From NCBI GenBank assembly GCA_001899635.1, contig MKVQ01000023.1:161815-225814 (forward strand): DNA of 64,000 nucleotides, in the 5' to 3' direction. The first letter of the stretch is position 1. Each line of letters starts with the position of its first letter. Below are positions 1-55,229 of the stretch, in pieces. The DNA comes from Myxococcales bacterium 68-20. Lineage in GTDB: Bacteria > Myxococcota_A > Polyangia > Polyangiales > Polyangiaceae. Made by a program: the position numbers and the translations under genes. The notes under the pieces are model-generated. The model had not been told where the DNA came from and did no database searches. It saw nothing but the letters and a program-made list of their open reading frames with translations.

Positions 1-1
1 T

Positions 2-937
2 GGCCGCGACTTCGGACCGGAGCACGATCCCGGTCGCCCTTCCTACAGCGACGCCCCCTCGCACGGTCCGTACCCCTACTCCGCGCTCGGCGTCTGGGGC
101 ACCTCGGCGGAGGACGTCTACGCCTGGTACGCGAACACGATCTTCCACTGGAAGAGCGAAGACGGCGGCGCTCCGGGCTGGGTCGCCGAACATGTCATCG
201 ACGATCCGAACAACCAGGGCGATGCGTTCTTCGTCTTCGGGGCCAGCGGCTCGAGCAGCGACGACGTCTGGTTCGGCGGCGGGCGCGGCCGCTACGACGC
301 CACCGGGACGTTCGCGTGTCCGATGGCCGTTCACAAGACGCCCGGCGGGTATCGCAGGCATCTGGACTACACGATCAACCCCTCCGACACGTACTCGCAC
401 TACAACAACTCGTGCACGCCGAAGGCAGGTGTCCTGAATCTCATATTCAGCGCCCACTTCCCCGGGTTCGGCACGATCACGGCCCCATGGAGGAACGGTG
501 GATGGCTGACGAACATCGCGTCGGCCCGTCCCGGCGCGGCCGTCGCCATCATGGAACGGGAGTGGGTCGCCTACGTCGGCTCGGAGGGCGCCGGCGTCGC
601 CATCCTCAACTCCGTCGGCGTCCGCGGCGCGACCTCCGCGTCCAGCGGAGCGCTCCTCAACTCGATCTCGATCCACGGGTCGGATGCGTGGATCAGCGGC
701 TGGGGGCTGGTCCTCAAGTCGGAGAACAAGCCGGAGGCGTGGGCCGCCGGCAAGGGCATCTTCACTCCGCTGGACATGGAGGAGCAACAGGTCGACGGGG
801 GGGCGACGTACAGCATCTCCACGACCGTGCTGAACGGAGCGCCTCTCGACAGGCCGCTCTATCAGGTGCGCGGCACCTCCAACGAAAACCTCTGGGCAGT
901 CGGACTCCGATATGCACTTCACAAGACGACACCTTGA
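2..937 (+). CDS. Secreted beta-propeller-like protein, 5' end outside the window
   Basis: An open frame enters from the left edge and runs 311 codons to TGA at 935-937, with no start inside the window. It repeats the short motif seen in BNR/WD-like propeller proteins of myxobacteria: VWGTSAEDVYAWY, SSDDVWFGGG, SIHGSDAWISGWG and GTSNENLWAVG, each followed by a short strand. Function is unknown. The same motif type occurs in the lipoprotein at 52185-53318. The 3' end overlaps the next gene by 26 bp, so this is probably the upstream member of a three-gene operon. The N-terminus, and so any signal peptide, cannot be seen. Confidence 0.75.
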   Translation, partial: GRDFGPEHDPGRPSYSDAPSHGPYPYSALGVWGTSAEDVYAWYANTIFHWKSEDGGAPGWVAEHVIDDPNNQGDAFFVFGASGSSSDDVWFGGGRGRYDATGTFACPMAVHKTPGGYRRHLDYTINPSDTYSHYNNSCTPKAGVLNLIFSAHFPGFGTITAPWRNGGWLTNIASARPGAAVAIMEREWVAYVGSEGAGVAILNSVGVRGATSASSGALLNSISIHGSDAWISGWGLVLKSENKPEAWAAGKGIFTPLDMEEQQVDGGATYSISTTVLNGAPLDRPLYQVRGTSNENLWAVGLRYALHKTTP

Positions 938-2258
938 TCGGCGCGCGCCACGGCTGCTCGTGATCGCTTCGTTCGTTACCGCGGGCGCGGCGGCGGCGAG
1001 CTGCTCGAGAAGCGACGACCCCGACATGGATCCGATCGACGCCGCGGCCCCCGATTCATCGAACACGCCGAGCGATGCAGGCCTCGACGCGACGAGGCCG
1101 ACCGACGCGGGCTTCGTCGACGCCGCGCCGCTTCCGGTCGTCTGTACGTCTCCTCCGTGCGCGATGCAGCTCGTGACGACGCTCGGCGAAGACGAGGACG
1201 ATCGCAGCGAGGGCTTCTGCACGCTTCTCGACGACGGCACCGTCGCCTGCTGGGGCGCGAACGGCGCGGGCCAGCTCGGACGCGGCGACGACGCGGGGAC
1301 GCTCGACAGCGCGAACGCAGCGCGTGTCGTCGGTCTCGCGAATGTCGTCACGCTCGATCACACGTGCGCGGTCGACAAGGAAGGCTCCGTGTGGTGCTGG
1401 GGCACCGGCCCCTTCCTCGGCGCGGACGCGGGGGGACCGATGACGACAGCGCTTGCTCCGGTGAAGATCGATCTGCCTCCGGCATCCAAGGTCGGCCTCG
1501 GCCACGGGACGGCGTGCGCCGCAATCGGCGACGGCGTCCGGTGCTGGGGCAGTAACGCGAACGGCCAGATCGGCCCGCTCACGGCGGACGCGGGCGACCC
1601 CGCGGTGCCGCGGCCGATGCCGATACCGGCAGGCGCACCCGTTCGTGCCCTCTCGGTCGGCAAGGCGACCTTCGTGCTTCGTGAGGACGGCTCGCTCGTG
1701 ACGTGGGGAGGAAATCCACCGCTCGGACGCGTCTCGCCGATGTTCCCCGATCCGAATCCGCGAGACATCGCGCTCCGCGGGATCCTCGTGGCCGATCTGG
1801 CCTACGACAGCGCGTGCGCGACGGCCGGCGGTACCGGCTACTGCTGGGGAGCTCGCGTCCAGCAAAACGTGGCTTCGGAGACGGATCGCGCGCTTCCGGC
1901 GCCGATCCTCGCGCCCGAGCCGCTCGTGCAGATCGCCACGACGCGGACCCACGCGCTCGAGGCCGCCAAGGTGCAGCCTTATCGATGGTGCGCGACCGGC
2001 GTCTCGGGCGACGTTTGGTGCTGGGGGTTCAACGAGAGCGGTCAGGCCGGAGACGGAACGCGGGACCACGCGTTCCACGCCGTGAAGGTCGCCGGTCTGC
2101 CTGCGCCCGCGGCGCAGGTGAAGACGACGCCCAACACGACGTGCGCGCTCCTCACGAACGGCAAGGTCCATTGCTGGGGGAGCAACTACAACGGTCAACT
2201 CGGCAACGGACAGAGCCGCGGACGAAGCCTGATCCCGGCGGAGGTAGTGCTCCCATGA
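912..2258 (+). CDS. RCC1-repeat lipoprotein
   Basis: A 448-residue protein with a basic N-terminus, a hydrophobic stretch and a lipobox-like AAASC with Cys31, so probably a lipoprotein. After an Asp/Ala/Pro-rich linker it carries about seven RCC1-type repeats, each ending in a pattern like CWGxNxxGQLG (for example VACWGANGAGQLGRG, VHCWGSNYNGQLGNG). RCC1 repeats form a seven-bladed propeller. In bacteria of this group such proteins are secreted and their ligands are unknown. Each blade has paired cysteines, as expected for an extracytoplasmic fold. The gene overlaps its upstream neighbour by 26 bp, and its stop codon overlaps the next start as ATGA. Confidence 0.9.
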   Translation: MHFTRRHLDRRAPRLLVIASFVTAGAAAASCSRSDDPDMDPIDAAAPDSSNTPSDAGLDATRPTDAGFVDAAPLPVVCTSPPCAMQLVTTLGEDEDDRSEGFCTLLDDGTVACWGANGAGQLGRGDDAGTLDSANAARVVGLANVVTLDHTCAVDKEGSVWCWGTGPFLGADAGGPMTTALAPVKIDLPPASKVGLGHGTACAAIGDGVRCWGSNANGQIGPLTADAGDPAVPRPMPIPAGAPVRALSVGKATFVLREDGSLVTWGGNPPLGRVSPMFPDPNPRDIALRGILVADLAYDSACATAGGTGYCWGARVQQNVASETDRALPAPILAPEPLVQIATTRTHALEAAKVQPYRWCATGVSGDVWCWGFNESGQAGDGTRDHAFHAVKVAGLPAPAAQVKTTPNTTCALLTNGKVHCWGSNYNGQLGNGQSRGRSLIPAEVVLP

Positions 2259-4015
2259 GCAAACGTTTTGTCCGCGCCGCTGCGTCCTCGGTCGTTGCGC
2301 TCCTTGCGGCTGCTGCGTGCGGTGACAAGCGCGGCGCGTTCGATACAGGTCCCGCCGGCTTCGAAGTGCTCCCGCAGACGGACGCCGGACCATGCCCTGT
2401 CCAATGCTCGCTCGACGGCCGTGCGATCATTCGTGCGTGCACGGGGGAGGTCGTCGAGACATGCCCACCGGAGCAGGCGTGCGGCGCGGCGCAGTGTCAG
2501 GAGCCGTGTGCGGCGGCCGCAGCGGACCAGAGCTCGAACGGCTGCGACTTCTACTTCCAGGAACCTGCGTCCTATTCCTTCGCGGCGGACTCCTGCTTCG
2601 CGGCCTTCGTCGTCAACACGTCGGTCCAGCCGACGGAGCTCGTGCTCGAGCGCGAAGGCCGTGTCCTCGACCTCTCGAACGCGTTGTTCCGCACCAACCC
2701 AGGGGACGCAACGCTCATTCAGCACGCGGGCCCGATCGGTCCTGGCGAGAGCGTCGTCGTCTTCCTCTCGGATCGCGATCCGGAGGCGCTCGTGACTGGG
2801 ACTAGGCCCATAGCGTGCCCGGACGGTGTTGTCCCGGCAGTCCTGGACAAGACGAGCTTGAAGACGACAGGGATCGGCTCGTCGTTTCGCCTGAGCGCGA
2901 CCAAGCCGGTGTCGCTCGTCGCGATGTATCCGTTCGGCGGCGCGAACAGCCACCTCCCAACGGCGTCCCTCATTCTGCCCGTCGTCACGTGGGGGAAGGA
3001 GCATCTCGTCGTCAATCCGTGGGAGCCGAACGTTGGGCTGCCGATCACGCAGATCGTCGCCTCCGAGGAAGACACACACGTGACGGTCATCCCGAAGCGG
3101 TCCATCCAGGATGGGATCGACGTCAAAGGGACGCCGGCGAAGGTCCCCGTGACCTATCGTCTCGGCAAGGGCCAGCACCTCCAGTTCGCGCAGTTCGACG
3201 AGCTCACCGGGAGCATCGTCACGTCGAACAAGCCCACGGCCGTCTTCGGCGGTCACGGCTGCGCGAATCTCCCCCGCGGCGCCTGCGATGTCCTCTGGCA
3301 GCAGATCCCCACGTTCGAGCACTGGGGCTCGGAGTACGTCGGCGTCGGCTACCGCTCGCGGATCGGCAACGAGGCCGAGACGATGCCGTATCGCATCGTC
3401 GCGGCCCGCGACGGGACGCGCCTCGATTACGATCCGGCGATCCCCGTCGGGGCGCCGACCGAGATGTCCGCCGGCCAGGTGGCGACGTTCCCCGCGGGTG
3501 TCGGTGACGCGTTCGTCGTCCGCACGCAGGACGCCGAGCACCCGATCTACGTCGCTGCGTACATGACGGGCCATCAGGGCGGCTATTTCGGCTCGCCGGA
3601 CAATGCCGGCAACGGAGATCCGGAGTTCGTCAACGTCGTCCCCACCGGCCAGTGGCTGAACTCGTACAGCTTCTATGCCGATCCGACCTACGAGGAGACG
3701 TCCCTCGTCATCGTGCGGGCGAAGAACCACGGAAAGTTCGAGGACGTCTGGCTCGAGTGCGCCGGCAACCTGACCGACTTCCGCCCGATCGGGACGCGCG
3801 GCGACTTCGAGTTCACGCGCGTCGACCTCTCGCGGGGCGGCGGCCCGGGGCAGACGTTCGGTGACAAGACCTGCCGGAGCGGCCTGCAGCGCATGAGGAG
3901 CAGCGGTCCGTTCACGGCCACGCTGTGGGGATGGGGCTTCGCGGCGAGCTACGCCTATCCGGGCGGCACGGCGAATCGGAAGCTCGTCACGACGCCGCTC
4001 GTCTCCATCCAGTGA
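2255..4015 (+). CDS. IgGFc-binding-domain lipoprotein (copy 1)
   Basis: A 586-residue protein. The start is the ATG that overlaps the previous stop; the open frame extends further upstream but only inside the RCC1 gene. The N-terminus (LLAAAAC) gives a lipobox with Cys22. A short cysteine cluster around residues 45-85 is followed by one long domain of the IgGFc_binding family (beta-rich repeats with SLVAMYPFGG, AVFGGHGC, GPFTATLWGWG and SYAYPGG). The Pfam name comes from a mammalian mucin-like protein, so antibody binding should not be assumed here. A paralogue lies at 53427-55229 and a broken C-terminal piece at 47817-48116. Probably a surface adhesin or matrix protein. Confidence 0.88.
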   Translation: MSKRFVRAAASSVVALLAAAACGDKRGAFDTGPAGFEVLPQTDAGPCPVQCSLDGRAIIRACTGEVVETCPPEQACGAAQCQEPCAAAAADQSSNGCDFYFQEPASYSFAADSCFAAFVVNTSVQPTELVLEREGRVLDLSNALFRTNPGDATLIQHAGPIGPGESVVVFLSDRDPEALVTGTRPIACPDGVVPAVLDKTSLKTTGIGSSFRLSATKPVSLVAMYPFGGANSHLPTASLILPVVTWGKEHLVVNPWEPNVGLPITQIVASEEDTHVTVIPKRSIQDGIDVKGTPAKVPVTYRLGKGQHLQFAQFDELTGSIVTSNKPTAVFGGHGCANLPRGACDVLWQQIPTFEHWGSEYVGVGYRSRIGNEAETMPYRIVAARDGTRLDYDPAIPVGAPTEMSAGQVATFPAGVGDAFVVRTQDAEHPIYVAAYMTGHQGGYFGSPDNAGNGDPEFVNVVPTGQWLNSYSFYADPTYEETSLVIVRAKNHGKFEDVWLECAGNLTDFRPIGTRGDFEFTRVDLSRGGGPGQTFGDKTCRSGLQRMRSSGPFTATLWGWGFAASYAYPGGTANRKLVTTPLVSIQ

Positions 4016-47816: not shown

Positions 47817-48116
47817 TCAGCGAACGGTAAGCGCGGTCGTGACGAGCTTTCGCTGCGCAATCCCGCCGGGATAGGCATAGCTCGCGGTTCGTCCCCATCC
47901 CCAGATCGTCGCGGTGAACGGCCCCTTGCTGTTCAGGCGCTGGAGGCCACTCGTGCAGGTGCCCCCCGGGAACGTCTCCCCTGGACCGCGCTGGCGCATC
48001 AGGTCGACGCGGCGATACTCGAGCGTTCCGGCGGTGCCGAGCGGTTCCCATCCCGAAAGGGCCCCTCCCGCGCAGCCGAGCATGATCGTCCACATCCGGA
48101 CGAAGGAGCAACGCAC
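47817..48116 (-). pseudogene. C-terminal remnant of an IgGFc-binding-type lipoprotein
   Basis: About 85 codons (LGCAGGALSGWEPLG, YRRVDLMRQRGPGETF, GPFTATIWGWGRTASYAYPGG, KLVTTALTV) match the C-terminal end of the proteins at 2255-4015 and 53427-55229, in the same order. An in-frame TAG stands immediately upstream of the first possible start, and the 450 residues that should precede it are missing. A deleted paralogue. Confidence 0.75.
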
Positions 48117-48606: not shown

Positions 48607-49710
48607 TTGTCGGCGCGCCGTGCTGCTCTTCTCGCAGGTCTGCTGTTCTCGGCGCGCGCGACGAACGCGCGAGCCGAAGACGCGTCCGGCCGCGCCCACG
48701 TCGTCCTCGATTGGACACGTGCGCCGGGTGCCGAGCGTTGCATCTCGCGCGACGAGCTGTTGGCTCGCATGCGCGCACGCGCTTCGCACGTCGTGCTCGA
48801 CGTCGGCCCGCACGACGCCGACTTCGTGGTGCGCGGACGGATCGAGCCACGCCCCGGCGGCTTCCGGACCGTCTTCATCCTCCAGGATGGAAGCGGTCAT
48901 CAGCTGGGTGAACGCACGTTCGACGCGACGGCTCGCTCGTGTCGAGCGCTCGACGAGTCGTTGACCCTCGCTCTCGAGATGCTGGTCGACACTCCGAGGC
49001 TGCGCGAGCTCGCACTGGCCGCGCGCGGTGACCGCACGGAGAGCGCGGAGCATCCAGTGCCGGTCCAACCGGAAGCGAAGCCCGAACCTCCGAGCGCACC
49101 GCATCCCGGATCGGGTCCGCGCCCCTCGCCACGACCGCCGGCCAGGCCATCGCCCGCGAAGCCACCTCCGCGGAACCGACCATGGGAGATCGATCTCGGT
49201 CTCGGCGCGAGCGCGTCAGGCGGCTTCGCGCCTAGACCGACCATCGGGCCGACGGTCCAAGCGATGCTCCATCCGCCGGGCTTCGTCCCAATCTCTCTTC
49301 GCGGAACGCTCTACCCGTTCGCCGTCGACCGAGTCACCGTTCCGGGTGAGGGGATCGCGGTTCGCGGCTTCGTGGCCGGCCTCGATCTCTGTCCGCTTGC
49401 TCTCGCGCGCGGTCGTTTCACCGGCCTCGCCTGCGCTGGCGTCGACCTGGCCGGCATTCACGCGGAACCGCTCGGCCCGAGGTCGAACGCCGGCGACCTC
49501 TTGTTCCCGCTCCTTCCCCTCCGCGCCGAGATGCGCGCACACGTCGGCGGTCTCACTCCGTACGCTGCGTTCACGATGCGGTTCTCGCCGACCTCCCCCG
49601 AGTTCATCCACGAAGCACCGACGGGAGAAGATCGAGTCTCGTTCCGGGAGCCGCGAGCAACGGTCGCGCTCGAGCTCGGCTTCGTGTGGCGGCTTCCCGC
49701 GAAGAAGTGA
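48607..49710 (+). CDS. Exported protein with a predicted beta-barrel C-terminus
   Basis: A 367-residue protein, start TTG 48607 (no ribosome site, uncertain). Signal peptide ending near NARAED. Residues about 30-135 form a domain with AHVVLDWTRAPGAERCISRD, FVVRGRIEPRPGG and SCRALDESLTLALEMLVD, a pattern seen in other myxobacterial envelope proteins. A proline-rich linker (about 150-190) leads to amphipathic strands (DLGLGASASGGFAPRPTIG, PFAVDRVTVPG, ATVALELGFVWRL) like an outer-membrane barrel. First gene of the sigma-factor operon. Confidence 0.75.
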   Translation: MSARRAALLAGLLFSARATNARAEDASGRAHVVLDWTRAPGAERCISRDELLARMRARASHVVLDVGPHDADFVVRGRIEPRPGGFRTVFILQDGSGHQLGERTFDATARSCRALDESLTLALEMLVDTPRLRELALAARGDRTESAEHPVPVQPEAKPEPPSAPHPGSGPRPSPRPPARPSPAKPPPRNRPWEIDLGLGASASGGFAPRPTIGPTVQAMLHPPGFVPISLRGTLYPFAVDRVTVPGEGIAVRGFVAGLDLCPLALARGRFTGLACAGVDLAGIHAEPLGPRSNAGDLLFPLLPLRAEMRAHVGGLTPYAAFTMRFSPTSPEFIHEAPTGEDRVSFREPRATVALELGFVWRLPAKK

Positions 49711-49782
49711 CCGCCTCGCGCCTCGTGTCGAATCCTTTGGAGGGATCGGCGCCTGGCGACATAACCATTGATATAGGGCCCG

Positions 49783-50316
49783 ATGATCTCCCTCAGGCTG
49801 CTCCCTCCGGAAGTCACGGGCGTAGCTCCCGAGGCCCCGTGCATCCGCGACATCGTCCTTTCGCACGGAAAATACGTGTGGAGGCTCCTTCGTTACCTCG
49901 GCGTCCCCACACGTGACCTCGACGACGTCAGCCAAGACGTCTTCGCGACGGTCTACCAAAAGCTCGACCGTGTATCCGACGGCGGCATCCGGCCATGGCT
50001 GAGCACGATCTGCCTCAACCACGCAAAGAACTACCGCCGTCGGGCGCGCTTCCAGCGTGAGGTGCTCGTCGACGACGTGCCCGATTCCGCCCTCGCGGCA
50101 ACCCCCGAAGCGAGGCTCGATCGCGCTCGCAAGCAGAGCCTGCTTCTCACGTTGCTCGACGACCTCGACGAGGACAGGCGAGCCGTTTTCGTCCTTCACG
50201 CAATCGAAGACATTCCAATGGAACAGGTCTCCAAGCTCATCGGCTGCCCGGTGTCGACGGCCTACGCCCGGTACCAGCGCGCGTACGTGGAGCTCGAGAG
50301 GAAGCTGAAGAAATGA
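49783..50316 (+). CDS. ECF-type RNA polymerase sigma factor
   Basis: A 177-residue protein with region 2 (RDLDDVSQDVFATVYQKLDR, PWLSTICLNHAKNYRRRAR) and region 4 (LLDDLDEDRRAVFVLHAIED, then IPMEQVSKLIGCPVSTAYAR). The length is usual for ECF factors. The start follows AGGG by four bases; the 70-bp gap upstream is AT-rich (CATAACCATTGATATAG), a good promoter candidate. The stop overlaps the next gene as ATGA, which encodes a membrane-anchored protein in the place usually held by an anti-sigma factor. Confidence 0.95.
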   Translation: MISLRLLPPEVTGVAPEAPCIRDIVLSHGKYVWRLLRYLGVPTRDLDDVSQDVFATVYQKLDRVSDGGIRPWLSTICLNHAKNYRRRARFQREVLVDDVPDSALAATPEARLDRARKQSLLLTLLDDLDEDRRAVFVLHAIEDIPMEQVSKLIGCPVSTAYARYQRAYVELERKLKK

Positions 50317-51053
50317 AGCCGCACGTCCCCATCGAGCTGAGCGACCTCGTCGCCGAGGCGCGGTCCGACGGCCCCTCGCCCGAGGCCTTGTCTCGTCTCG
50401 CCGACGAGGCGAGCGCCCGTGCTGCGGCCGCCCCGGTGACGAGCCGGTCCGTCGGCCGTCTCGCGTCGCGTCTCGGCGTGGCCGCTGTCGTCTCCGCAGC
50501 GGCGTTCGGCATCCTCACGGCCGCCGGCGTGTTCGACACCTCGAGCGACTCCGAGCCCGCCCCTTCCGCCACGCCCGCGCCCGCGCCCGCGCCCGCGAGC
50601 GACGAGCAGCCCACCGTCGCGCAGCCCGCGGCGGATCCCGTCGTCGACGACTCCACGAACGTCGTCCCCGCCGTTCCGACGATCGACGTCCGCTCACTGC
50701 CTGCGCCCCAGGGTGCTACCGCCGGCGTCAAGGTCCCCGCCGCTCCACCCGATGACGCATCGGAAGGAGCGCTCCTCCGTCGCGCGTACGCGGCGACGAC
50801 GACCGCTCCGCGGCAGGCGCTTGCCCTGACCGTGGAGCACGCGCGTCGATTCCCGACCGGCGTGCTCGCCGAAGAACGCGAGGTCATCGCGATCGAAGCC
50901 CTCGCCAAGCTCGGGCGCGACGACGAAGCACGTTCCCGCTCGTCGGCGTTTTTCGCGGCCCACCCGGGCTCCGCCTACCGGCTGCGGATCGACGACGCCC
51001 TCCGCAAGTCTGCTTCTCCTGCGCCTTCGCCGAGGGAGAGCCATGATCCGTAG
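50313..51053 (+). CDS. Membrane-anchored TPR-like protein, possible anti-sigma factor
   Basis: A 246-residue protein. Short cytoplasmic part (about 1-45, SDLVAEARSDGPSPEALSRL), one membrane segment (GVAAVVSAAAFGILTAAGVF, about 55-75), a Pro/Ala linker, and a periplasmic helical region (GALLRRAYAATTTAPRQALAL, EREVIAIEALAKLGRDDEAR) of TPR type. The position after an ECF gene with translational overlap fits an anti-sigma factor, but there is no zinc-binding or other known anti-sigma motif. It overlaps the next gene by 11 bp. Confidence 0.8.
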   Translation: MKPHVPIELSDLVAEARSDGPSPEALSRLADEASARAAAAPVTSRSVGRLASRLGVAAVVSAAAFGILTAAGVFDTSSDSEPAPSATPAPAPAPASDEQPTVAQPAADPVVDDSTNVVPAVPTIDVRSLPAPQGATAGVKVPAAPPDDASEGALLRRAYAATTTAPRQALALTVEHARRFPTGVLAEEREVIAIEALAKLGRDDEARSRSSAFFAAHPGSAYRLRIDDALRKSASPAPSPRESHDP

Positions 51054-52188
51054 GGGCATCGTCCTCACGACGACGCTTGCGCTCGTTTCTCTCGCGAGCT
51101 GCATGACGTCGAGGATCGGCAGCTACCTGGAGGAGCCGCCGCCGCCTCCGTCGTTCACGTCCCCCGACGCCGAGACGACGCTCGACGCGAGCGACATCGA
51201 CAGCAACATCCCGATGTGCGCGGTGACGACATGCTCGTTCCCGTGGGCAAGCTGCGAGTCGTCCCAGTTCCCCTGCGACACCAACCTCCTCAACGACAAC
51301 GACAACTGCGGAGCATGCGGGAAGCGCTGCTCGGGCGGGAGCTTCAACAACTCCACATGGACCTGCGTCGACGGCGAGTGCGGGTTCAGCTGCACGGGCG
51401 TCGGCTTCCGCAATTGTGACGGCAAGCCGGAGAACGGCTGCGAGACCAGCGTCCGGTACGACACGAAGAACTGCGGTGCCTGCGGGACGGAGTGTCCCCC
51501 CGGACACCTCTGCGAGGAAGGGGTCTGCTACGACCCCTGCTTGGCCGCGAACCGCCTGGACACGTGCAACGGCGAGTGCACGAACCTGAAGACGGACGAC
51601 AAAAACTGCGGGACCTGCGGCACGGTGTGCGACCCGGCCGACCCGAACAAGCCGCCGCTCCCGTCCGACATGCGCTACGGGTGCTCGCAAGGCACGTGCG
51701 GCAACGCCCAGTGCAAGTCCCCGGACAAACGCGACTGCAACAACGACGTGAGCGACGGCTGCGAGGTCACGCTTCACACCAACGATAACTGCACCGACTG
51801 CGGCGATGCATGTCCGGCCGGCAAGACGTGCATGTACAACGGCCTCTGGTTCTGCGGCTGCGCCGACGGCGAGACGAACTGCGGAGTCGAGGGCTGCAAG
51901 CAGCTCGACGATGATCCGCTGCACTGCGGGGGCTGCAACCGCGTCTGCCCCGGCCACGGGCGACCGCACTTCACGCCGTCGTGCTCGCTTGGCGTCTGCG
52001 GTGGTCGCTGCGACGAGCACTATGCCGATTGCGACGGCATCACGAGCAACGGCTGCGAGGTCAACACCCGAGTCGACAACGGCAACTGTGGCGCCTGCGG
52101 TAACGCTTGCGCGCCCAATCAGGTCTGCTCCGAGGGTCGATGTCTCGTCGCCCCTTGTGATGCCGGCCCGGATCCGCTCGCCAAATGA
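51043..52188 (+). CDS. Cysteine-rich repeat lipoprotein
   Basis: A 381-residue protein; lipobox SLASC (Cys20). From about residue 60 there are six or seven repeats with the core NCGACGxxC and xNGCExx (for example NDNCGACGKRC, PENGCETSVRYDTKNCGACG, GDGCEVTLHTNDNC-like), more than 40 cysteines in all. This repeat is common in secreted proteins of this phylum and often carries a wrong automatic name (tryptophan synthase alpha chain). Its role is unknown; probably disulfide-stabilised rods on the cell surface. Part of the sigma-factor operon, overlapping the next gene by 4 bp. Confidence 0.9.
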   Translation: MIRRGIVLTTTLALVSLASCMTSRIGSYLEEPPPPPSFTSPDAETTLDASDIDSNIPMCAVTTCSFPWASCESSQFPCDTNLLNDNDNCGACGKRCSGGSFNNSTWTCVDGECGFSCTGVGFRNCDGKPENGCETSVRYDTKNCGACGTECPPGHLCEEGVCYDPCLAANRLDTCNGECTNLKTDDKNCGTCGTVCDPADPNKPPLPSDMRYGCSQGTCGNAQCKSPDKRDCNNDVSDGCEVTLHTNDNCTDCGDACPAGKTCMYNGLWFCGCADGETNCGVEGCKQLDDDPLHCGGCNRVCPGHGRPHFTPSCSLGVCGGRCDEHYADCDGITSNGCEVNTRVDNGNCGACGNACAPNQVCSEGRCLVAPCDAGPDPLAK

Positions 52189-53318
52189 CGTCGTCGCGCC
52201 GTCGCCCCGTGCAGGCTCGCTCCGTCGCCGCGCTCGTGCTCTGGGCAGGCGTCCCCGCGCTGGCCCTGCTCTCGATCGCGGCGTGCGCCGAGGCGGACGC
52301 GACCGAGGTCGACGCCGGGGATAGCAGCGTCGTCGCTCGCCCACCCCCGACCGACGAAGCGTCGATCCTCGACGGTGGCGCGGAAGCCGAAGCCGAGGCG
52401 TCTCTACCGCCGTGCGCCGTCGGGAATCTCTGCGGCGTGCCGCTCCCGCTCTCGATCGGCCACGTCGTTGCGATGGCCGGCCGATCGAAGAACGACGTCT
52501 GGGCAAGCGCCTCGCGCGGCGAGCTGTTGCGTTGGGATGGCCAGACGTGGACGAAGGCCGACTCCGGGGGCCTCGATACATTCTCGAATCTCTTCATCAC
52601 CCCCGACGAGCTCTGGGGAGTCTCGGGCAACCTCGTCATGCGACGCGGCCTCGAGGCGAGCAGCGTCCGCTCCTTCCGATTGCGCGAGCGCTTCATTGGC
52701 ATGACGGGCATCGCCGTGCTGCCGAGCGGCGAGCCCTACGTGAGCTTCGGCGCGACCTGGAATACGACCGACCCTCACGACTACCTCGCCAAGATCCAGG
52801 ACTTCGACACCAAGACGATCCAGGTAGTCGCGGCCCCCGTCGATCCCTCGACCGATCGGCCACTCGCGATGGCGGCTCGAGCGCTATGGCTGGTGCCGGA
52901 CGAGGCGCTGTGGCTGGTCGGAGACCGTGGAAGGGTCGTTCGGTATTCGGTCTCGCCCGTCGGAGACGGCGTCGTGATCCCGCTCGACTCACAAGTCGAT
53001 CTGTTCGCCGCATGGGGCGAAGGCACCCATCTCTGGGCCGGCGGTAGCAACGGCACCATCCTCCATTTCGACGGAGCCGCCTGGCACCGGGAGACGACCG
53101 GCGCCTCCGCCACCATCAACGCCATCTTCGGATTCTCGTCGACCGACATCTGGGCGGCGGGTGACGACGGCACCATCCTCCACTTCGACGGGACGACCTG
53201 GTCGACGGTCCCGGTCGCCGGATACGCAGGGCATCTCAGGACCATCTGGGGATCGGCGCCCGATGACGTGTGGATCGGCGGGGAGCTCGCCATGTTCCAC
53301 TGGGGAGCCCTTCCATGA
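52185..53318 (+). CDS. Beta-propeller lipoprotein
   Basis: A 377-residue protein; lipobox SIAAC (Cys34). From about residue 95 the BNR/propeller motif repeats: AGRSKNDVWASASRGELLRW, ITPDELWGVSGNL, DEALWLVGDRGRVVRY, EGTHLWAGGSNGTILHFDG, SSTDIWAAGDDGTILHFDG and SAPDDVWIGG. Each blade ends in a (W/L)HFDG-type strand. It resembles the partial protein at the left end of the window. The start overlaps the previous stop (ATGA). Likely displayed on the cell surface. Confidence 0.9.
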   Translation: MTSSRRRPVQARSVAALVLWAGVPALALLSIAACAEADATEVDAGDSSVVARPPPTDEASILDGGAEAEAEASLPPCAVGNLCGVPLPLSIGHVVAMAGRSKNDVWASASRGELLRWDGQTWTKADSGGLDTFSNLFITPDELWGVSGNLVMRRGLEASSVRSFRLRERFIGMTGIAVLPSGEPYVSFGATWNTTDPHDYLAKIQDFDTKTIQVVAAPVDPSTDRPLAMAARALWLVPDEALWLVGDRGRVVRYSVSPVGDGVVIPLDSQVDLFAAWGEGTHLWAGGSNGTILHFDGAAWHRETTGASATINAIFGFSSTDIWAAGDDGTILHFDGTTWSTVPVAGYAGHLRTIWGSAPDDVWIGGELAMFHWGALP

Positions 53319-53426
53319 GCTCGACACGCTCGAGCCCGCTCGTCTGAGCGACGGAACCCTCCGGCCAATCGGCGGCAACTCACTTCATCTTCGAACTAGC
53401 TCGCGCTGAGCGAGGAAGGTTTTCCC

Positions 53427-55229
53427 ATGCGCAGGCCCATTCTCCAGCTTCTCTTCATCGTGTCGGCGGGATGGTTCGGCTGCTCGTCCGATCGAGCGAC
53501 GTTCAAGGAGAGCGGTCCGCAGGAGTTCGACACGCCCGATGCCGCCGCCGACGAGCCCGACGCGTGTACCGCCGTCTCCTGCTCGCGTGACCTTCGCTCC
53601 GTCCTCGATTGCAACGGAAACATCGCCAGGACGTGCCCGCCGGATCTGGCGTGTGGCAACGGCAACTGTGTATCTCCGTGCGACGCCGCGGCGATCAACG
53701 AAGGCTCGGTCGGCTGCTCCTTCACGGTGCCGGGGCCCAACACGAAGGTCCACGCGCGCGGGAGCTGCTACGCCTTCTTCGTCGCGAACAACTGGACGTC
53801 GCCGGCCACGCTTCGCTTCGAGGCCGACGGCAAAGAGCAGTCCCTCGACGGGGCGGTCTGGATCCCGACGGTCAAGGACGACGTCGTGACCTACACGAAG
53901 CTCGACGGCCCGATTCCCCCGGGCGGTGGAGCGGTCGTGTTCGTGTCGAACGAGGAGACCGGCGCCATCTACTGGACCTCGTGCCCAGCGTTCGTCAAAC
54001 CGATCTTCGACAAGGAGCAGGGCATCTACGGAACGGGCAAGGGCAGCGCGACGCTCGTCAGCTCCGACGTTCCCGTCTCGATGTACTCGATGTACCCGTA
54101 CGGCGGCGCGAGCAGCGTCGTGCCCAGCGCGATGCTGCTCTTCCCGACCTCGTCGTTTCGCAAGAACTACATGGTCGTGGGCGCCTGGGGCGGAAAGAGC
54201 GACGGCTTCGGCCGCGGGATGCTCCCCAACGCGAGCCCGCCCCTGACTCAGGCCGGCCTCCCGACGCTCCAGATCGTCGCCGCGGAGGACGACACGTCGA
54301 TCGACGTCCGACCGAACGTCGACATCATCGGAGGCAACGGAGTCAGCGCGGGGCGACGAAACGCGGTCACGACCTACAAGCTCCAGCGCGGCGAAGTCCT
54401 GCAGCTGATGCAGGACAACGAGCTCGTCGGATCGGTCATCGACGCGACCAAGCCCGTCGGCGTCTTCGGCGGACACACGTGCATGTTCGTTCCGAGCGAC
54501 GTGATGGCCTGTGACCTCGAAAACAATCAGATCCCCCCGATCTCGGCCTGGGGGAGCGAATATGCGGTCTTGCCGGCGCCGAACCGCGTCGATCTCTACT
54601 CGCAAGGAGCCGAGAAGGCACGCGACCCGAGCCCGATCCGGATCGTCGCCGCCGCCGACGACACGCAGCTGGTCTACGAGCCCGCGCAGCCGGAGGGCGC
54701 TCCGAGCACGCTCTCACGCGGCCAGCTCGGCGTCTTCTTCGCCGATCGCCCGTTCGTCGTGCGAAGCCAGGACAGCGACCATCCCCTGTACGTGGCCTCG
54801 GTCATGACGGGCGCCGCGACCGTCTTGAGCACGGCGATGGGCGATCCCGAAGTGGCAATGGCCACTCCCACCGATCAGTGGCTGGACTCGTATGGGTTCT
54901 TCACGGACTACACCTATTCGCTCAGCGAAGTCTTCGTCACGCGGCGCAAGGTCGGTGGAACCTTCCACGATGTGGAGCTCGACTGCGCCGGCACGCTCAC
55001 GGGCTGGAAGTCGATCACGGACGACTTCGAATGGACGTACGTGGAGCTCACACGCAACGGCAAGCCGCGAACGTATCCGGCGGGCACCTGCACCGACGGA
55101 GCCCATCGCATCTGGAGCGACGGCCCGTTCGCGATGACGGTCTGGGGTCTCGCCCGTTACGCGAGCTACGCGTACCCGGGCGGCACCGGCCTTCGACCGG
55201 TCACCAATCTCCACGTGCCTGTCCATTGA
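53427..55229 (+). CDS. IgGFc-binding-domain lipoprotein (copy 2)
   Basis: A 600-residue protein with GAGGAAGG before the ATG; lipobox WFGC (Cys19). A cysteine cluster at about 47-90 precedes the IgGFc-binding-type domain: MYSMYPYGGASS, VGVFGGHTC, YVELTRNGKPR and GLARYASYAYPGG. It is a paralogue of the protein at 2255-4015, with the same architecture and similar length but moderate identity by eye. The 108-bp gap before it is larger than the other gaps in the operon, so it may have an extra promoter. Confidence 0.9.
   Translation: MRRPILQLLFIVSAGWFGCSSDRATFKESGPQEFDTPDAAADEPDACTAVSCSRDLRSVLDCNGNIARTCPPDLACGNGNCVSPCDAAAINEGSVGCSFTVPGPNTKVHARGSCYAFFVANNWTSPATLRFEADGKEQSLDGAVWIPTVKDDVVTYTKLDGPIPPGGGAVVFVSNEETGAIYWTSCPAFVKPIFDKEQGIYGTGKGSATLVSSDVPVSMYSMYPYGGASSVVPSAMLLFPTSSFRKNYMVVGAWGGKSDGFGRGMLPNASPPLTQAGLPTLQIVAAEDDTSIDVRPNVDIIGGNGVSAGRRNAVTTYKLQRGEVLQLMQDNELVGSVIDATKPVGVFGGHTCMFVPSDVMACDLENNQIPPISAWGSEYAVLPAPNRVDLYSQGAEKARDPSPIRIVAAADDTQLVYEPAQPEGAPSTLSRGQLGVFFADRPFVVRSQDSDHPLYVASVMTGAATVLSTAMGDPEVAMATPTDQWLDSYGFFTDYTYSLSEVFVTRRKVGGTFHDVELDCAGTLTGWKSITDDFEWTYVELTRNGKPRTYPAGTCTDGAHRIWSDGPFAMTVWGLARYASYAYPGGTGLRPVTNLHVPVH

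Follow-up and report, generated by a model that had tools for sequence, protein, structure and literature searches.

A family of about 120 ECF sigma factor cassettes, assembled from two modules with conflicting histories, in a Labilithrix-type myxobacterial genome

We analysed a stretch of 64,000 nucleotides (the window) from Myxococcales bacterium 68-20 (assembly GCA_001899635.1, contig MKVQ01000023.1; C23:161815-225814, in a genome of 11.89 Mb and 52 contigs), in which six genes at 48607-55229 form an operon containing an extracytoplasmic function (ECF) sigma factor. Judging from sequence comparison, this operon is one member of a family of about 120 divergent paralogous cassettes in a single Labilithrix-type genome, and the regulator half and the lipoprotein half of these cassettes are exchangeable modules. 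We read each cassette as a trans-envelope switch together with its linked surface proteins, multiplied to about 120 copies by duplication and effector-module exchange, and give this reading a probability of about 0.68. The genes of the window cassette (gene types A to G) and its module joint are as follows.

48607..49710, + strand: A, with signal peptide, periplasmic alpha/beta (TolB-N-like) domain, Pro-rich tether and 8-strand outer-membrane barrel; probable sensor; regulator module
49783..50316, + strand: B, ECF sigma factor, assigned by family scans; regulator module
50313..51053, + strand: C, with short N-terminal helices, one transmembrane (TM) helix, disordered linker and TPR-like domain; probable anti-sigma factor; regulator module
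51043..52188, + strand: D, Cys-rich STIG1-like lipoprotein; leader and tether follow the regulator module, the mature part follows the effector module
51120..51220, + strand: joint of the two modules, within D; on the regulator side, homology with the C33 cassette stops at about 51120 and the conserved mature block begins at about 51217 (coordinates estimated by comparison)
52185..53318, + strand: E, beta-propeller-like lipoprotein of the E1 type; effector module
53427..55229, + strand: G, IgGFc_binding lipoprotein; effector module, the G stop codon being the usual right end of the module

The initial annotation had described six genes in series with overlaps at three junctions, and the open reading frames (ORFs) bore this out: all lay on the + strand, B and C overlapped by 4 bp, C and D by 11 bp and D and E by 4 bp, and 72 bp separated A from B and 108 bp E from G. 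Their order was A-B-C-D-E-G, without a second propeller (E2) and an RCC1 protein (F). Family scans agreed with its ECF sigma, cysteine-rich, propeller and IgGFc identities, the propeller match being weak. B matched Sigma70_r2 (E 6e-9) and Sigma70 r4_2 (E 1.5e-10) in Pfam, as in an ECF sigma factor with regions 2 and 4; D matched STIG1-like PF04885 (E 5.5e-8, 33.6 bits, curated cut-off 24.1) and, below its 100-bit cut-off, the MXAN_6577-like cysteine-rich model NF041328 (91.4 bits); E gave a Ycf48-type propeller match far under the cut-off (E 2e-5); and G matched IgGFc_binding PF17517 with 290.9 bits (E 1.3e-86, cut-off 25.6). In the related cassette L164, D scored 18.7 bits against PF04885, under the cut-off. 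No Pfam family exceeded its cut-off in the window's A and C, and none of the PADLOC anti-phage defence models matched any of 7 proteins at E 0.01.

Across the genome we found 141 PF17517 matches, including 3 short fragments, and 122 of them had a same-strand sigma gene upstream within 12 kb (110 of these at 6-7 kb). At distances of 1-9 kb, sigma genes lay upstream on the same strand in 121 cases and downstream on the same strand in 22, compared with 5 and 3 on the opposite strand; since the sigma list comprised the 150 that were scored out of 222 candidates, a few cassettes may be missed. The 118 stretches holding sigma-IgGFc pairs contained 119 cassettes. Hidden Markov models of the gene types, seeded with the window proteins and iterated on the same 118 stretches, detected B, C and G in 118/118 stretches, D and E in 117/118, A in 115/118 and F in 114/118; the presence of B and G follows from how the stretches were chosen, while that of A, C, D, E and F does not. 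Gene order was exactly A-B-C-D-E-E-F-G (barrel, sigma, TM/TPR, Cys-rich, propeller, propeller, RCC1, IgGFc) in 92/119 cassettes and B-C-D-E-E-F-G in a further 14/119. With gene starts estimated, overlaps of exactly 4 bp occurred at B-C in 66/115, at D-E1 in 61/118 and at E1-E2 in 80/114, and median gaps were 134 bp (A-B), 59 bp (C-D) and 51 bp (F-G). This order, kept in so many paralogues, together with the recurrent B-C overlap, argues that the arrangement seen in the window is more than chance. The cassettes spanned 1.085 Mb (9.1% of the genome), on 35 of the 52 contigs, and are old, as their low median pairwise identities show (A 0.21, B 0.34, C 0.27, D 0.42, E1 0.30, E2 0.25, F 0.33, G 0.41).

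Distance matrices separated the eight genes into two groups. Correlations reached 0.76 (A-B), 0.70 (A-C) and 0.66 (B-C) among the regulators and 0.86-0.93 among D, E1, E2, F and G, compared with 0.01-0.12 between the groups (maxima in 200 permutations, 0.05-0.10). Nearest neighbours agreed in 38-46% and 49-63% of cases inside the two groups and in 2-5% between them. Trees built from the 95/119 cassettes with all eight genes (24 were dropped) gave the same picture: the regulator and effector trees had 1 supported split in common (of 65 and 68), with 64/65 and 66/68 contradicted, whereas the trees of A and of B+C had 26 in common (of 45 and 53; 6 and 6 contradicted) and those of D+E and of F+G had 38 in common (of 58 and 59; 9 and 10 contradicted). 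Close relatives in both modules were available for 59 cassettes; the partners differed by a clear margin in 42, were the same in 2 and fell between in 15, and effector pairs with a G identity of 0.82-0.89 had B identities of 0.24-0.43, near background. On these comparisons A, B and C have shared one history and D, E, F and G another, and the two are in conflict. Adjacent cassettes (15 pairs less than 3 kb apart) had a median G identity of 0.60, versus 0.41 overall, and a median B identity of 0.36, versus a background of 0.34; effectors that are similar beside regulators at background suggest local spread of effector modules.

The window copy is itself a chimera, because its regulators and effectors have different nearest cassettes and because its DNA homology with L135 stops in D. 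Its regulators were nearest to L135 and L164 (with L135, A 0.56, B 0.63 and C 0.55) and its effectors to L070, L071, L128, L161 and L171 (G 0.61-0.65), and the homology with L135 ended at about 51120, save for a short piece near the end of G. In sliding windows over the whole family, the leader and tether of D weakly tracked the regulators (r 0.18-0.24, versus about 0), whereas D from alignment column 41 onward tracked the effectors (0.74 versus 0.03), so that on sequence comparison the break between the two histories lies in the D tether. In ten pairs taken from the top of the effector list, with some cassettes used more than once, DNA homology began 93-180 nt past the estimated D start; in 9 pairs it ended no more than 15 nt from the G stop and in 1 it ended 86 nt beyond it; a further common stretch of 926 bp lay downstream in the pair L118/L156. 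DNA conservation over 107 anchored cassettes climbed where mature D has its first cysteine codons and fell to background right after the G stop, and the effector module, from D tether to G stop, measured about 6.8-7 kb. In these 107 cassettes, simple base-frequency and 9-mer counts revealed no site-like motif, either within the D tether or downstream of the G stop.

Exchange was also seen in related genomes, using 40 stretches from Labilithrix sp. ACE_MYX5 (G003) and ACE_MYX7 (G006), of which 29 gene chains were usable. In ACE_MYX5, the effector module of L216 was 91.7% identical over 6,773 bp to that of L107 in the window's genome, whereas its regulator module was 69.5% identical to that of L085 and had no match to that of L107; similarly, L225 combined a regulator 83.7% identical to L151 with an effector 82.2% identical to L109. 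Within the two relatives alone, cross-module correlations were 0.31-0.47, versus 0.78-0.92 inside modules; the presence in this sample of orthologues from the same cassettes would push cross-module correlations up.

Two explanations would remove the need for exchange, and we consider both very improbable. Whole cassettes might have been duplicated, with regulators then diverging very fast (for insulation) while effectors stayed similar; the pairs with highly similar G and near-background B, and the adjacent cassettes that have effectors but not regulators in common, could be read in this way. Such a process predicts compatible trees with unequal branch lengths, and the trees, together with L216 and L225, show the opposite: well-supported regulator and effector clades clash, a conflict that unequal rates by themselves would not be expected to yield, and most cassettes with close relatives in both modules have different ones in each. 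Reads of paralogous cassettes might instead have been misjoined at the conserved sequence in D, given that all sequences come from assemblies, several of them metagenome-assembled genomes (MAGs), and that the cassettes are numerous. Against such an artefact, an exact run of at least 41 nt occurred at the junction in only 3/6902 cassette pairs (median 12), the cassettes are spread over most contigs, and exchange was found in the independent assembly G003 as well. Both readings were tested in these ways, by exact-match runs at the junction and by conflicting supported clades, and were rejected as unlikely.

AlphaFold models agreed with the earlier description of A as barrel-like and C as a membrane TPR-like protein. 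For A (26 sequences, mean predicted local distance difference test score [pLDDT] 81), the model comprised a signal peptide, an alpha/beta domain, a disordered Pro-rich tether and an 8-strand barrel, whose best structural match was OmpW (Z 17.4, root-mean-square deviation [rmsd] 2.8, 166 aligned). The N-terminal domain, in which two cysteines and one arginine were invariant in 26 sequences, had modest matches to a DUF330 protein (2iqi, Z 9.2) and to TolB (2hqs, Z 8.8, rmsd 2.6, 99 aligned). In C (27 sequences, mean pLDDT 75), a TPR-like domain (148-234, pLDDT mostly 96-98) came after two N-terminal helices, a helix at 51-70 taken as TM and a disordered linker. No match in a fold search with C had an E value below 0.07, and 28 C paralogues matched 15 families at E 0.01, with no single TPR family in more than 5/28. 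In the sigma factor, a stretch at residues 62-71 was variable, as were positions around the invariant T159/R163 in the region 4 helix; their assignment to promoter contacts is suggestive only.

From these models, A is probably the sensor, C the anti-sigma factor and B the sigma factor of a switch, an assignment drawn from the 4-bp B-C overlap, the co-inheritance of A, B and C, the AlphaFold models and the triads found in other genera (see below). A, with its outer-membrane barrel and periplasmic domain, probably senses something outside the cell and would relay the signal through the periplasm to C, a putative inner-membrane anti-sigma factor that would receive it with its TPR domain; C would then free B, and B would transcribe its own cassette, including the lipoproteins D-E-E-F-G. 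We infer that D to G would lie on the cell surface and bind something outside it, such as prey, kin, surfaces or polymers. The approximately 120 divergent copies would have arisen via duplication and repeated exchange of the whole effector module between unrelated regulator modules. The initial annotation had proposed an ECF sigma factor operon for a set of cell-surface proteins; the tie to predicted surface lipoproteins stands, by anatomy, but the barrel protein, since it is inherited with the sigma factor and the TM/TPR protein, is probably a sensor part rather than a displayed protein.

In layout, A-B-C resembles two known systems without their defining features. As in FecA-FecR-FecI (as described in the available part of PMC9249621), an ECF sigma factor is combined with a one-TM inner-membrane regulator with a periplasmic C-terminal domain and with an outer-membrane barrel with a periplasmic domain. 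Whereas FecA is a TonB-dependent receptor with an N-terminal signalling domain, A is an OmpW/OmpA-like 8-strand barrel with a TolB-N-like domain and gave no match to the TonB family; C has a TPR-like domain in place of a FecR match, FecR being absent from the 15 families that matched the 28 C proteins; and the output here consists of predicted surface lipoproteins, in about 120 copies. The Dma/Das systems of Bacteroides, in which three Dma members (Dma1-3) are named in the accessible portion of PMC13088901, likewise link an anti-sigma part, a TM helix, a disordered tether and a beta-barrel to an ECF sigma factor, but unite in one Dma chain the parts that are here divided between C and A. The Dma family is further defined by a cognate sigma factor of group ECF21. 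As for the repertoire, the ECF sigma/anti-sigma polysaccharide loci of Bacteroides also comprise many paralogous pairs, each beside outer-membrane binding proteins; the cassettes lack SusC/SusD, and module exchange at a fixed joint is not mentioned for Bacteroides in the excerpted text of PMC3878776. We found no description of the present system in listings and abstracts of the open-licence literature, and no paper there containing both IgGFc and a word that begins with Myxococc, in line with the earlier remark that no described system with this combination was known.

The conservation of gene order, for which a survey had been proposed, extends over old paralogues and within about the genus, and not widely. 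IgGFc matches in 11 other genomes of the genus numbered 46, 17, 9, 9, 4, 3, 2, 2, 1, 1 and 0, versus 141 here, and in a sample of 377 genomes from the phylum the largest number of first-look IgGFc candidates after the 144 here was 27 (at most a few candidates were scored in each genome, and the sample did not include G003, which has 48). Outside the window's genome, 80 of 111 IgGFc matches were taken, corresponding to 79 loci. Among these, the full cassette order occurred only in the Labilithrix-titled MAGs ACE_MYX5, 7 and 8, and D-E-F-G or more in these three and in Polyangiaceae bin.255 (C-D-E-E-F-G); fragments were found in ACE_MYX12 (E-F-G then A-B-C) and RYN_370 (E-F-G). In the fetched flanks of loci from Minicystis, Nannocystis, Polyangium, Kofleriaceae, Byssovorax and other Myxococcota, G, a member of PF17517, stood without the cassette; L261, L298 and L304 had a sigma-type ORF close to G, and L307 and L310 had one of the D type. 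In a MAG from another family of the order (L269 / G180:C195), E-F-G was followed by A-B-C, the end of one cassette and the start of another, similar to the Labilithrix copies (C profile E 3.4e-59), through either horizontal transfer or MAG contamination. Separate IgGFc expansions (22-27 first-look candidates) were observed in family f14 of the same class (G227, G232, G331, G338 and G341).

The regulator module recurred more widely. C-type proteins were found in 147/183 genomes of the order, the window's genome included, and in three other Polyangiaceae genomes an A match lay 0.3-1.5 kb upstream of C on the same strand in 17/20, 6/24 and 9/12 cases. From the A-C loci with that spacing, 18 were chosen by eye; in every one, profile matches to A, B and C lay on that strand, with ORF ends in A-B-C order. 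At least 8 of the 18 (L335, L336, L341, L342, L345, L348, L350 and L351) had a lipoprotein-like protein as the next called same-strand gene, as judged by eye, with no signal-peptide program and with a simple gene caller that missed several B and C; this gene was an F-type RCC1 protein in L336 and had no D-G match in the other seven. One of these genomes (G377), with 9 matches to A and 12 to C, had none to IgGFc. With such triads in other genera, A-B-C looks like a general Polyangiaceae module that has been coupled to the D-G set in this genus.

Two other readings concern function, and each strikes us as unlikely. The cassettes might form a nutrient-capture repertoire like the ECF-regulated polysaccharide loci of Bacteroides, each sensor detecting one polymer and inducing its binding lipoproteins. 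The many paralogous sigma/anti-sigma-like pairs, each beside outer-membrane and lipoprotein genes, would fit, and B. thetaiotaomicron has 26 such sugar-linked systems among 88 loci in all (PMC3878776, available text); the 15 cassette proteins scanned had no match to SusC/SusD, a TonB-dependent transporter or a glycoside hydrolase. Alternatively, C might not be an anti-sigma factor nor A a sensor, B being constitutive or controlled by its supply and A and C being structural parts of a complex for lipoprotein export or display. The TPR domain of C is BamD/YbgF-like by fold, weakly (best E 0.07), and no known anti-sigma domain was detected in C, as this idea would have it; yet A and C follow B, not the lipoproteins, in their inheritance, and A-B-C is present without the D-G set in other genera.

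Several observations count against reading the cassettes as switches whose effector modules have been exchanged. In 8/15 cross-module comparisons, all with B or C, the correlation was slightly above the maximum of the 200 permutations, so that a trace of shared history remains. Within the genus, 15/24 chains of the relatives (those with B, C, E1 and G) kept the pairing of the window's genome and 9/24 pointed to different cassettes; exchange is thus slow on that time scale, most pairings being passed on across species divergence and some exchanged. A was called directly upstream of B in just 103/119 cassettes, its model being noisy and matching ORFs outside the A-B-C order as well (A was accepted only where it lay no more than 900 bp upstream of B). 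The one line of evidence for surface location, a lipobox-like cysteine, was present in just 74/118 D proteins (starts estimated). No known anti-sigma domain was detected in 28 C proteins, and segment-level partial correlations among the domains of A, B and C gave no contact-specific signal separable from shared ancestry. Finally, k-mers, dyads and a two-block motif model revealed no common promoter motif upstream of A, in A-B or in C-D: the A-B signal from k-mers and the two-block model was largely the coding end of A, and the F-G gap had enriched dyads beside the G start. This absence fits separate sigma specificities and does not show them.

Two further sets of genes in the window belong to this family.

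2..937, + strand: E2 propeller of a second cassette, its 5' part lying outside the window
912..2258, + strand: F, RCC1 propeller lipoprotein of the second cassette
2255..4015, + strand: G, IgGFc_binding lipoprotein of the second cassette (2255 is the first ATG of the reading)
47898..48086, - strand: remnant corresponding to the last 49 model positions (249-297), and so to the 3' end, of an IgGFc gene

The left-end cluster (1-4015) is the E-F-G tail of another such cassette, its F matching RCC1_2 with 83.7 bits (cut-off 22). It had been annotated as lacking a visible regulator, which holds inside the window; its A-B-C lies just outside, with a sigma match at C23:157636-158085, about 3.7 kb upstream. 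The IgGFc remnant, directly upstream of A on the opposite strand, is probably a relic of a lost cassette.

The genome also contained incomplete and unusual sets: effector modules without a regulator found (L187, L191, L193), regulator modules without an effector found (L203-L206), divergent regulator/effector pairs (L188, L190), effector modules behind a more distant sigma factor (79-92 bits; L189, L192, L196), and regulators with D-E-F sets without G (L198, L199, L200). In L199 the G slot held a lipoprotein of 290 amino acids with a G-like leader and a different body. Genes that we take to resemble an IS66-type insertion element lay at L206:420-1144, beside the regulator without effectors.

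A more speculative possibility, which we regard as doubtful, is that the family forms a combinatorial recognition repertoire, in which about 120 insulated sensor-sigma modules, as expression slots, and about 120 surface modules, as their contents, would be reassorted through recombination at the fixed joint, lineages thereby continuing to make new pairings, like antigenic-variation or kin-recognition repertoires, possibly with one or few cassettes expressed per cell. About 120 sigma/anti-sigma-like pairs, each linked to its own operon, are far above the 26 sugar-linked pairs reported for B. thetaiotaomicron in the available text of PMC3878776. The family is a natural data set on the mutual insulation of sigma factors and on input-output rewiring, with halves swapped as whole blocks at one joint. 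One cassette family can occupy close to a tenth of such a genome, and it provides a concrete candidate for how large-genome myxobacteria may vary their surface.

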